Below, piece by piece: positions 42,762 to 55,335 of a stretch of 55,358 bases of DNA. The stretch is from positions 1 through 55,358 of the forward strand of contig CACXYH010000024.1 of assembly GCA_902771785.1 (NCBI GenBank). Direction: 5' to 3'. Both the position numbers and the translations under genes were made by a program. The notes beneath the pieces are model-generated. The model was not told where the DNA came from. It did not search any database and saw only the letters and a list, made by a program, of their open reading frames with translations. The DNA is from an uncultured Prevotellaceae bacterium. GTDB taxonomy: Bacteria > Bacteroidota > Bacteroidia > Bacteroidales > Bacteroidaceae. Numbering within the stretch: the first letter of the stretch is position 1; every line of letters starts with the position of its first letter.

Positions 42762-44759
42762 TTACTTCTCGTCGAGCGCAGGCTCCTCAACAAAGTCGAG
42801 GACGTTCTTGCGATTGGCCTGCATGCGCTCATAGTCTTCCTTCGAGCCCACGATGAGCTTCTCGAACTCGCGCAGACCTGTACCGGCGGGGATGAGGTGA
42901 CCGCAAATCACGTTCTCCTTCATGCCCTCGAGGAAGTCCTGCTTGCCGCGGATGGCAGCCTCGTTGAGCACCTTCGTGGTTTCCTGGAACGATGCAGCCG
43001 ACATGAACGACTTGGTCTGCAAGGCAGCACGCGTGATACCCTGAAGTATCTGAGTAGACGTTGCGGGCACGGCATCGCGCACCTGAACGAGCTTCATGTC
43101 GCGGCGCTTCAGCGAAGAGTTCTCGTCGCGCAGACGACGGGCGGTAACAATCTGGCCCTTCTGCAGGTTCTCTGAGTCGCCTGCGTCGATGACCACCTTC
43201 TTACCCCAGATGCGGTCGTTCTCCTCAGCGAAGTCGAGCTTGTCGACAATCTCCTGCTCGAGGAACGATGTGTCGCCCGGGTCGTTAATCTGCACCTTGC
43301 GCATCATCTGGCGCACGATAATCTCGAAGTGCTTGTCGTTGATCTTGATACCCTGCAAGCGATACACATCCTGCACCTCGTTGACGATGTACTCCTGTAC
43401 GGCGGTCGGGCCCTTGATGGCCAGGATGTCGCTCGGAGTGATAGCACCATCGGAGAGCGGAGTGCCGGCACGCACGGCGTCGTGCTCCTGCACCAGGATC
43501 TGCTTCGACAGCGATACGAGATACTTGCGCTGCTCGCCAGTCTTCGAGGTGACGATGATTTCGCGGTTACCGCGCTTCACCTTACCCATGGTGACCTCAC
43601 CATCGATTTCAGAAACGATGGCAGGGTTCGACGGGTTGCGGGCTTCGAAGAGCTCGGTGACACGAGGCAGACCTGCCGTAATATCACCACCCTTGGCAGC
43701 GGCACGAGGAATCTTGACCAGCGTCTCACCCGTCTTCACGGTCTGGCCGTCTTCTACGACAACGTGACCGCCCACGGGGAAGTTATAGGTTCCAAGGATT
43801 TCGCCATTCACATCGAGCACGTCGCAGGTAGGCACCTTCGTCTTATCCTTCGACTCGGTAATAATCTTCTCAGTCAGACCGGTCGTTTCATCGGTCTCGG
43901 CACGGAAGGTGATACCTTCGATAACGTCATTGAACTTGAGCACACCGGCAAACTCGGTGACGATCACAGCGTTGAAGGGGTCCCACTGGGCAATCTTGTC
44001 GCCCTTCTTCACCACGTCGCCCGTCTTGAAGTAGAGTGAAGAACCGTAAGGCACGTTCACCGTAGAGAGGGCAATCTTGGTATTGGGGTCGACAAAGCGC
44101 AGTTCGCCCAGACGGCTGACCACCATCTCGCAATCGCGTCCGTCCTCGTCGAAGGGAACAGTACGAACCTCCTCGAACTCAAGGCGGGCACTCTCATACT
44201 TATTCACAATCGAAGCGTTGGCAGCAGCGTTGGCAGCCACACCACCGGCGTGGAACGTACGAAGCGTAAGCTGTGTACCCGGCTCACCAATGGCCTGAGC
44301 AGCAATCACACCGACAGCCTCGCCCTTCTGCACCATGCGGCGCGTAGCCAGGTTGCGGCCGTAGCACTTGCGGCATACACCCTTCTTCGACTCGCAGGTG
44401 AGCACCGAGCGGATTTCAACGCTCTCAATCTCGGCAGCCTCGATGGCATCGGCAATGGGCTCGGTGATTTCCTCACCGGCAGAAACGATGACTTCGCCAG
44501 TCTTAGGATTGATCACGTCGTGAACAGAGACACGACCCAGGATGCGCTCGGAGAGTGAAGAGACAATCTCGTCGCCGCTCTTCAATGCCGTGCAGACAAG
44601 TCCGCGCAGCGTACCGCAGTCTTCCTCGGTGATAATCACGTCGTGGCTGACGTCGACAAGACGACGAGTCAGGTATCCGGCATCGGCCGTCTTCATAGCG
44701 GTGTCGGCCAGACCCTTACGGGCACCGTGGGTAGAGATGAAGTACTCCAGCACCGACAT
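42762..44759 (-). CDS. rpoC: RNA polymerase beta' subunit, C-terminal part (frame broken)
   Basis: 665 residues as drawn from [12 protein letters not shown]; homology in this frame continues upstream to 44798 ([13 protein letters not shown]). It contains the bridge helix ([16 protein letters not shown]), the trigger-loop region and the second zinc site [13 protein letters not shown]. Between this and the N-terminal part about 26 codons are absent and the frame shifts, so no whole beta' could be made. An essential gene, so the loss is probably not real in the living cell. Confidence 0.92.
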
Positions 44760-47017
44760 ACCTTCCTTGAAGTTCGACAGAATGGGGTTCTCAATAATCT
44801 ACTACCACGAGCACCCGAGTCGAGCATCATGAACACAGCATTGAAGCCCTGGTCGGCCTCGGTCATCTGCTTCATCAGGATGTTACCGATATCGTTGTTC
44901 ACGTGGGTCCAGGTATCAATCACCTGGTTGTAGCGCTCGTTGTCGGTAATGAAGCCCATGTTGTAGTTGTCGGTAATCTGCTGTACTTCCTGATTACCTT
45001 TCTCAATAAGCTCGGCCTTCTCCTTCGGGATGATGATGTCGTCGAGGTTGAACGAAAGACCAGCCTCGTAAGCCATGCGATAACCCAGATTCTTGATACC
45101 ATCGAGGAACTCGCAAGCCTCGGCAAAGCCCACGTTCTTAATCACATCGGCAATGATGTCGCGCAACGACTTCTTAGAGATGACCTTATTGACGAAGCCT
45201 ACTTCCTTCGGAACGATGCCGTTCACGATAACACGGCCTACGGAGGTCTCTACCTGATGGCGTATCTTCTGACCATCGACAACGTCGTCGACCACTACCT
45301 TCACCTGAGCATGCAGGTCGCACTTGCCTTCGTTGTGAGCGATAATGGCTTCCTCAGGACCATAGAACGAAAGGCCTTCGCCCTTGGCACCCGGACGGAT
45401 TTTCGAGATATAGTAGAGACCTAGCACCATATCCTGCGAGGGCACCGTGATAGGAGCACCATTGGCAGGGTTCAGGATGTTATGGCTCTGCAGCATGAGC
45501 AGCTGTGCCTCCAGAATAGCCTCGTTGGAAAGGGGAAGGTGGACAGCCATCTGGTCGCCGTCGAAGTCGGCATTGAATGCCGTACATGCCAGCGGGTGGA
45601 GCTGAATGGCCTTACCCTCGATGAGCTTCGGCTGGAATGCCTGGATACCCAGACGGTGAAGTGTTGGTGCACGGTTAAGCAGCACAGGATGACCCTTCAT
45701 CACGTTCTCAAGGATATCCCAGATAATCGGCTCACGACGGTCGACAATCTTCTTGGCCGACTTCACCGTCTTGACGATGCCGCGCTCAATCAGCTTGCGG
45801 ATGATAAACGGCTTGTAGAGCTCGGCTGCCATCAGCTTAGGCAGACCGCACTCACCCATCTTCAGCTCAGGGCCTACGACAATTACAGAACGGGCAGAAT
45901 AGTCGACACGCTTACCGAGCAGATTCTGACGGAAGCGGCCCTGCTTACCTTTCAGCGAGTCGCTGAGAGACTTCAGCGGGCGATTGGAGTCGCTCTTCAC
46001 GGCGCTCGACTTACGCGAGTTGTCAAAGAGAGAGTCGACTGCTTCCTGCAGCATACGCTTCTCGTTGCGGAGAATGACTTCAGGAGCATGAATCTCCATC
46101 AGACGCTTCAGACGGTTGTTACGAATGATGACGCGACGATAGAGGTCGTTCAGGTCGGAAGTGGCAAAACGTCCACCATCGAGCGGCACAAGAGGACGCA
46201 ACTCAGGAGGAGTCACGGGAATAATCTTCATAATCATCCACTCGGGACGGTTGATGCCCTTCTCAACGCTTGAGCGGAAGGCCTCGACCACCTGCAGACG
46301 CTTCAGAGCCTCGTTCTTACGCTGCATCGAAGAGTCGCTGTTGGCGCGGTCACGCAATTCGTATGAAAGTGAATCAAGGTCAAGACCCTGCAGCAGCTCA
46401 TAGACAGCCTCGGCACCCATCTTAGCTACGAACTTATTGGGGTCGCTGTCGTCGAGCAGATAGTTGTCCTCAGAAAGCTGGTTGTCCAGAATATCGTTGT
46501 ACTCCTCCTCTGAGAGCAGGTCGAACTTCTGAGAACCCAGCAGGGGTTCGCCGTCGGCGTTCTTGCGTCCTTCGAGCACACCAGGCTGAATGACGACATA
46601 ACGCTCATAGTATATGATAGCATCGAGCTTCTTGGTGGGCAGACCGAGCAGATAACCTATCTTATTAGGCAGGCTACGGAAGTACCAGATGTGAGCCACA
46701 GGAACAACCAGCTCGATATGTCCGCTACGCTCACGACGTACCTTCTTCTCTGTTACCTCAACGCCGCAACGGTCGCAGACGATACCCTTATAGCGAATGC
46801 GCTTGTACTTGCCGCAGGCACACTCATAGTCCTTCGTAGGACCGAAGATACGCTCACAGAACAAACCGTCGCGCTCGGGCTTGTAGGTACGATAGTTAAT
46901 GGTTTCAGGCTTGGTAACCTCGCCATAGGAGTTCTCGAGGATTTCTTCGGGTGAAGCAAGTCCAATGGTAATCTTGGTGAAATTACTCTTTACTTTTGAA
47001 TCTTTCTTGAAAGCCAT
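44693..47017 (-). CDS. rpoC: RNA polymerase beta' subunit, N-terminal part (frame broken)
   Basis: 774 residues as drawn, but only the first 739 are RpoC; after [10 protein letters not shown] (ending at 44801) the last 35 are out of frame. Zinc ribbon [16 protein letters not shown] near 70-90 and catalytic NADFDGDQM are intact. What should follow, in the family pattern a KEQIRQLSGMRG-like stretch, is missing (about 76 bp, estimated from the family). 40 bp after rpoB. Confidence 0.92.
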
Positions 47018-53988: not shown

Positions 53989-54006
53989 TTTGCTTATCTT
54001 TTTTAG

Positions 54007-54079
54007 CACGGGAAGGAGGACTCGAACCCACGACCCTCGGTTTTGGAGACCGATGCTCTACCAACTGAGCTATTCCCGT
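54007..54079 (-). tRNA. tRNA-Trp (anticodon CCA)
   Basis: On the minus strand the acceptor ACGGGAA pairs with TTCCCGT; the anticodon stem CGGT/ACCG closes CTCCAAA with CCA in the middle. CCA end is not encoded. Lies between tuf and secE, as usual in this phylum. Confidence 0.95.
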
Positions 54080-54121: not shown

Positions 54122-54157
54122 TCTAGTCTTTCTAGATTATCCAGAAGCTCTAGGATT
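54122..54157. repeat. Phased TCTAG array at the tuf 3' end (four units)
   Basis: Four 9-bp units without gaps: TCTAGTCTT, TCTAGATTA, TCCAGAAGC, TCTAGGATT. The last two bases overlap the tuf stop codon. Same unit design as in the rpoB leader. Confidence 0.85.
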
Positions 54158-55196
54158 AGTCTTCGTAGACCTCAGTGATCTGGCCAGAGCCTACCGTGCG
54201 GCCACCTTCGCGGATAGCGAAACGCAGACCCTTGTTCAGAGCAACAGCGTAGATAAGCTCAACAGTGATTTCCACGTTATCACCAGGCATCACCATCTCA
54301 ACGCCCTCGGGCAGAGTAATCTCACCCGTGCAGTCCATGGTGCGGAGGTAGAACTGAGGACGATACTTGTTTCCGAACGGAGTGTGACGTCCACCCTCTT
54401 CCTTCTTCAGGACATAGATAGAAGCCTTGAACTTCTTGAAGGGCTTGATCTGTCCGGGATGGCAGAGCACCATACCACGCTTGATCTCGATAACACCAGT
54501 CTCGATACGGCCAGTAGCAACAGTGCCACGACCTGTGATTGAGAACACGTCCTCAACAGGCATCAGGAAGGGCTTGTCGGTAGCGCGAGGAGGCTCCTGA
54601 ATCCACTCGTCAACGGTGTTCATCAGCTCCATCACCTTCTCTTCCCACTTCTCAACGCCGTTCAGAGCACCGAGAGCAGAACCACGGATGATAGGAGTAT
54701 CCTCTTCGAACTCATACTGCTCAAGGATTTCGCGAACCTCCATCTCAACGAGCTCGAGCATTTCCTCATCGTCAACCATGTCGCACTTGTTCAGGAACAC
54801 AACCAGACGGGGAACGTTCACCTGACGAGCGAGCAGGACGTGCTCACGGGTCTGAGGCATAGGACCGTCGGTAGCGGCAACTACGAGGATAGCACCATCC
54901 ATCTGAGCGGCACCAGTTACCATGTTCTTCACATAGTCAGCGTGTCCCGGGCAGTCAACGTGTGCATAGTGACGCTTAGCGGTCTCGTACTCCACGTGTG
55001 CGGTGTTAATGGTGATACCACGCTCCTTCTCCTCGGGGGCGTTGTCAATCTGGTCGAAAGACTTAACTTCAGACAGACCCTGCTTGGCCAGAACGGTCGT
55101 GATAGCAGCAGTCAGAGTGGTCTTACCATGGTCGACGTGACCAATAGTACCAATGTTTACGTGCGGTTTGGTGCGCACAAAGGTTTCTTTTGCCAT
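54156..55196 (-). CDS. tuf: Elongation factor Tu with a 48-residue internal deletion
   Basis: 346 residues against about 394 in related species. G domain is intact (GHVDHGKTT at 19-27, [13 protein letters not shown]). At residue 236, RIETGVI is joined directly to EIKRGMVLC; the family has about 48 residues in between, most of the domain-2 barrel. The join keeps the frame. Such a protein could hardly bind aminoacyl-tRNA, so either this copy is inactive or the sequence is misassembled. The rest of domain 3 is normal ([16 protein letters not shown]). Confidence 0.95.
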
Positions 55197-55263
55197 TGTT
55201 TTGTTGTTTATTAATTAATTTGATAAATCAATTGTTTTTGCTCCTCCCGTCATCTTCTCAGAG

Positions 55264-55335
<72 letters not shown>

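Follow-up and report, generated by a model that had tools for sequence, protein, structure and literature searches.

The tuf gene near the end of the window (the whole stretch of DNA analysed, 55,358 nt) raises the question of whether the organism makes a shortened EF-Tu or whether part of the gene was lost in the making of the sequence. The first-pass annotation of this locus had offered two explanations, a mis-join in assembly and a degenerate second tuf copy. The tuf frame, with start and stop codons, was found to span 54156-55196 on the minus strand and to encode 346 amino acids. Twenty-nine loci of the same genus (L008-L036) were used for comparison; 24 of these carry a full-length frame of 394 amino acids, and the remaining five are truncated at the ends of their contigs. 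By this approach, 48 codons (144 bp) that are present in all 24 full-length relatives were found to be absent from the window tuf, with the missing residues (HVGD...IDKN) positioned between GVI and EIKRG in each of the 24 loci. The break follows codon 236 and lies between 54489 and 54488 on the minus strand. The first 236 codons (54489-55196, minus strand) encode the GTPase domain and the start of domain 2, and the last 110 codons plus stop (54156-54488, minus strand) encode the end of domain 2 and domain 3. Alignment to two genomes of the genus that are each represented by a single contig (G345 and G117) revealed that exactly 144 bp were lost with 0 bp extra, and that 0 to 1 bp is shared at the join. 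No N was detected in the whole window. The earlier description of an in-frame loss of 48 codons with a seamless join at residue 236 was thus accurate in its size, position and coordinates. Its statement that most of one barrel was removed placed the loss correctly in domain 2 and was slightly strong in the word 'most', as 48 residues represent about half of this domain by the domain length that we presume. A 51-bp non-coding difference from G117 was also observed just downstream of tuf.

The short product was analyzed for the domains of EF-Tu by profile search and structural modelling. By Pfam search, the GTPase domain (PF00009) was detected at residues 10-200 (E 6.4e-65) and domain 3 (PF03143) at residues 250-343 (E 1.8e-36), and domain 2 was not detected at an E-value threshold of 0.001. 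The whole protein scored 622.8 bits against the NCBIfam family TIGR00485, for which the curated cut-off is 522.4, with the match divided into two stretches. The window product is similar to an ordinary EF-Tu (TIGR00485, the 394-residue form of the genus) in its score over the cut-off, its G345-like gene neighbours and its possession of the GTPase domain and domain 3, but differs in that it matches in two pieces with 48 residues absent between them and has no Pfam domain 2. When 16 EF-Tu sequences of named records were aligned, 17 of the invariant positions were located in the lost stretch, which corresponds to approximately residues 248-296 of the Thermus aquaticus chain (chain order taken as residue numbers). 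An excerpt of one published source (PMC4329189) assigns Ile231, Val237, Leu289 and Glu271 to the pocket for the 3'-end of the tRNA and His67, Glu226, Asp227, Phe229, Thr239 and Asn285 to the aminoacyl pocket. Since the lost stretch covers about 248-296 of this chain, the equivalents of Glu271, Asn285 and Leu289, among the residues named in that excerpt, are by residue range deleted from the window tuf.

When the short product was modelled with AlphaFold2, residues 207-250 had pLDDT values of less than 50 and were limited to strands of two residues. By contrast, domain 2 (residues 201-300) of a full-length relative (L037), modelled as a control, had block means of pLDDT 78-93 and ten strands of at least three residues. 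The alignment depths of the two models were nearly equal (16 sequences for the control compared to 17 for the short product), and both models were also of low confidence in portions of the GTPase domain, located within approximately residues 46-66 and 83-96. The models predict that the short product forms no domain 2 barrel and that the full-length relative does. A real and working short EF-Tu, in which the remnant of domain 2 suffices or tRNA binding is provided by a different protein, would be compatible with the in-frame nature of the loss and the intact state of both flanking domains. However, of the features of a functional EF-Tu, the GTP-binding domain and domain 3 were found and the domain 2 barrel with its aminoacyl/3'-end pocket was not; pocket residues named in the excerpt are gone, the model is without a domain 2 that its control has, and the lost stretch is kept in all 24 full-length relatives compared. 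A working short protein is on this evidence vanishingly improbable, and as the only EF-Tu of a cell it should not be able to support translation. A study of noncatalytic EF-Tu domains (Cetin et al. 1998, cited in PMC8431766) reportedly included an EF-Tu without the middle domain; the proteins of that study were made in the laboratory, whereas the loss in the window is partial and most likely absent from the cell.

We examined the copy number, conservation and neighbourhood of tuf, all of which bear on the proposal of a degenerate second copy with a working copy elsewhere. The source assembly (G000) consists of 123 contigs and is estimated as 97.8% complete and 1.4% contaminated. The count of tuf genes that the first-pass annotation had called for gave one tuf only; no second tuf was found across the 123 contigs, where the further matches were other GTPases of 31-36% identity. 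When a 2685-base query from G345 was used for DNA search, tuf was matched on the window contig as two pieces (query positions 1345-2208 and 2352-2685). The lost stretch itself was not found elsewhere in the assembly, where the search returned one 26-base match at chance level (E 0.34, among the best 40 of 61 candidates). Amino-acid identity to the 24 relatives was 96.2-98.7% before the join and 96.4-99.1% after it, and no stop or decay was seen in the remaining tuf sequence. Among 398 genomes of the genus, 196 had a match at E ≤ 1e-100, and each of these had a single such match among the best five candidates per genome. A search of plasmid records yielded one Bacteroides finegoldii record, annotated tuf, with 79% identity over 61% of the query.

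The genes that flank the window tuf are those of the single tuf of G345, with tRNA-Thr upstream (55263-55335, minus strand) and tRNA-Trp downstream (54006-54079, minus strand), the latter followed by two further frames that we take to be secE and nusG. The contig ends 23 bases past tRNA-Thr. In G345, the sequence continues upstream through tRNA-Tyr and tRNA-Thr and past them, and this DNA matches contig C83 at its end; thus, the assembly is broken near tuf as well. This break between the window contig C24 (window end 55358) and C83 (end 19176) falls at the tRNA-Gly of G345. Stretches of 85-87% identity to the tRNA-Gly region of G345 were observed on contigs C4 (two stretches) and C13, and 79 bp of contig C37 (581-659) were identical to the tRNA-Thr(TGT) region of G345, besides the tRNA-Thr(TGT) on C83. 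An assembly that is incomplete and in 123 contigs may lack a second tuf that the cell has, so that the absence of such a copy is no proof. The single match per genome within the genus, the neighbours of the single G345 tuf, the absence of stop and decay, and the identity to relatives on both sides of the join nevertheless argue against a degenerate copy, and a second tuf would leave losses in four other genes of the assembly (described below) unexplained. We consider this proposal of the first-pass annotation highly improbable, and the organism most likely carries a single normal tuf of full length, about 394 codons.

Other core genes of the same assembly were compared to those of related genomes. 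Within the window, the region from 42.7 to 55.3 kb was aligned to both G345 and G117, and losses of more than 40 bp relative to both references were counted. Two were detected: the 144 bp of tuf and 76 bp of a gene that we take to be rpoC (42762-47017, minus strand), which is split into two frames of 774 and 665 amino acids. The rpoC join (44800-44801, minus strand) is free of N and shifts the reading frame, and no second rpoC was found in the assembly. The operon of ribosomal protein genes on contig C10 (in L147) served as a second region and was compared to G117 only. By this comparison, rpsQ was found to have lost 90 bp near 44.2 kb of the contig, rpsH 50 bp near 46.05 kb and rpsM 88 bp near 51.17 kb, all without N, the first in frame and the other two with a frameshift. 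A non-coding difference of about 75 bp was also seen upstream of rpsH between C10 and G117. Taken together, comparison of two regions of the genome revealed five N-free losses of 50-144 bp in core genes, and all five joins share just 0-2 bp. Family searches detected S13, S17 and S8 whole, with a single match each, in nine of nine searched genomes of the genus that consist of one or two contigs. By contrast, the assembly under study had only fragments of these three proteins, of which the S8 fragments still pass a low family cut-off. Copies of the rpsQ, rpsH and rpsM region elsewhere in the assembly were not detected, with only four pieces of C10 matched by one long DNA query at E 0.001, a search from which pieces of 50-90 bp could escape. 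The loss was in frame in two of the five genes (tuf and rpsQ) and caused a frameshift in three (rpoC, rpsH and rpsM). This ratio is close to chance, and little weight can thus be given to the tuf loss being in frame.

Loss of tuf, rpoC or rpsH function is lethal, and S13 and S17 can be removed from E. coli at heavy cost. Our confidence that the losses are artefacts is not altered by the dispensability of S13 and S17, since tuf, rpoC and rpsH remain. A biological origin of these losses is implausible, as functional tuf and rpoC are required for a cell to live, and for five such cuts across two sampled regions of one genome it is not credible. Nor can the rpoC frameshift be read in the manner of a working short EF-Tu. 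That the bacterium lives with an EF-Tu lacking the core of its tRNA-binding domain together with cut rpoC, rpsQ, rpsH and rpsM, with the missing parts provided by unassembled copies or restored after transcription, is likewise vanishingly improbable. A real but broken allele, carried by a dead-end sub-population or by one sequenced clone with the 144-bp deletion and picked by the assembler, fares somewhat better: with almost no sequence shared at the join, the joined sequence may exist in some reads, and the undecayed state of the remaining tuf is as expected of a very recent deletion. However, growth would not be possible for one clone with all five losses on two contigs, those of tuf and rpoC included, and the selection by the assembler of five separate minority alleles is improbable. 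We regard a broken allele as very unlikely.

To place the tuf loss in the context of the genus, 276 genomes of at least 90% completeness (G000 included) were surveyed for their best match to full-length EF-Tu, with six candidates scored per genome. All 40 genomes of 10 or fewer contigs had a tuf of near full length (E 1e-217 or better). By contrast, the 236 genomes of more than 10 contigs included 160 with a tuf of near full length, 35 with a partial tuf (the window genome among them) and 41 lacking it. Absent or fragmentary tuf was thus found in 76 of 236 genomes in the more fragmented group compared to 0 of 40 in the other (Fisher p 1.3e-6). The best matches in the 41 tuf-lacking genomes ranged from 1e-18 to 1e-24, a strength typical of other GTPases. 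As a separate observation, these 41 of 276 genomes without a tuf-grade match all have more than 10 contigs and are at least 90% complete, the defect being invisible to completeness scores.

Thirteen tuf stretches that appeared interrupted were retrieved, eight from the 34 other partial genomes and five with odd spans or frames among the matches listed. N-free losses of 33-118 bp, elsewhere in tuf than the window loss, were found in six of these drafts: G192 (L133, 118 bp), G376 (L134, 50 bp), G464 (L135, 45 bp, aligned as 22 + 23), G467 (L136, 33 bp), G260 (L138, 58 bp) and G009 (L144, 35 bp). Runs of N inside tuf were present in four others (G028, G127, G436 and G181). The remaining three (G174, G072 and G296) had neither an N-free loss nor an N run, and the tuf of G174 was split over frames by smaller differences. 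The occurrence of N-free losses at differing places in tuf of other drafts suggests that this gene breaks easily in assemblies of the group.

These results lead us to conclude that the short tuf is very probably an artefact of assembly and no genuine feature of the organism, the decisive evidence being the N-free losses in rpoC, rpsQ, rpsH and rpsM of the same assembly. A defect of like kind was found in unrelated core genes of the one assembly, and it was absent from finished and near-finished genomes of the genus (0 of 40 for tuf, with S8, S13 and S17 whole in nine of nine). Of the two explanations in the first-pass annotation, the mis-join is the one borne out, by the five core genes with N-free losses and by how often tuf is broken in drafts of the genus.

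The fragmentation of the genome indicates that it is probably of metagenomic origin, and the underlying data would be short reads from a mixed community. The 144-bp stretch inside tuf was very probably dropped during draft assembly, with the flanks joined without N, and rpoC, rpsQ, rpsH and rpsM would have been affected likewise. A plausible cause is a tangle in the assembly graph, formed by near-identical stretches shared with co-occurring relatives, after which scaffolding or gap closing could have butted the ends together. The longest exact tuf run shared between pairs of the 24 relatives had a median of 59 nt. Regions common to several species are said, in a portion of PMC8021871, to fragment metagenome assemblies and cause errors. 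A portion of another report (PMC7111523) describes local errors of assembly through which incorrect protein genes remain in public drafts, with one assembler suspected to be prone to them. The losses described here are similar to those errors of metagenome-assembled genomes, as far as that portion describes them, in that wrong sequence lies inside genes and several cases occur per assembly. They differ in that the published errors, of several types, were detected by missing read support, whereas the losses in this genome are known from the assembled sequence.

Collapse at a repeated k-mer as the sole cause was considered and rejected; the five joins share 0-2 bp, and plain k-mer collapse in a de Bruijn graph is thus insufficient. 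The possibility that the lost stretch is the most conserved part of tuf was likewise rejected, as it ranked 219 of 348 windows of the same size among the 24 relatives, and its coverage by exact 31-mers shared among them was slightly below that of the whole gene. Since the stretch is not unusually conserved, this ranking does not place it in the most tangle-prone part of tuf. The 98 nt directly after the join are identical to two relatives (L012 and L023). This hint of a chimaera is weak, as exact runs of at least 93 nt occur in 10.9% of the pairs of relatives.

Among the matches listed in a search of the open-licence PMC literature, no report of a tuf shortened like the window copy was found, which proves little. 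As biology, the short tuf is of no importance, and its value lies in the caution that it provides on draft genomes. A draft with 97.8% completeness and 1.4% contamination still carries seamless losses in no fewer than five core genes (in frame in two cases), and such losses are revealed neither by a completeness score nor by a count of N. Searches of such drafts for translation factors of reduced length, absent domains or pseudogenes will yield false positives.
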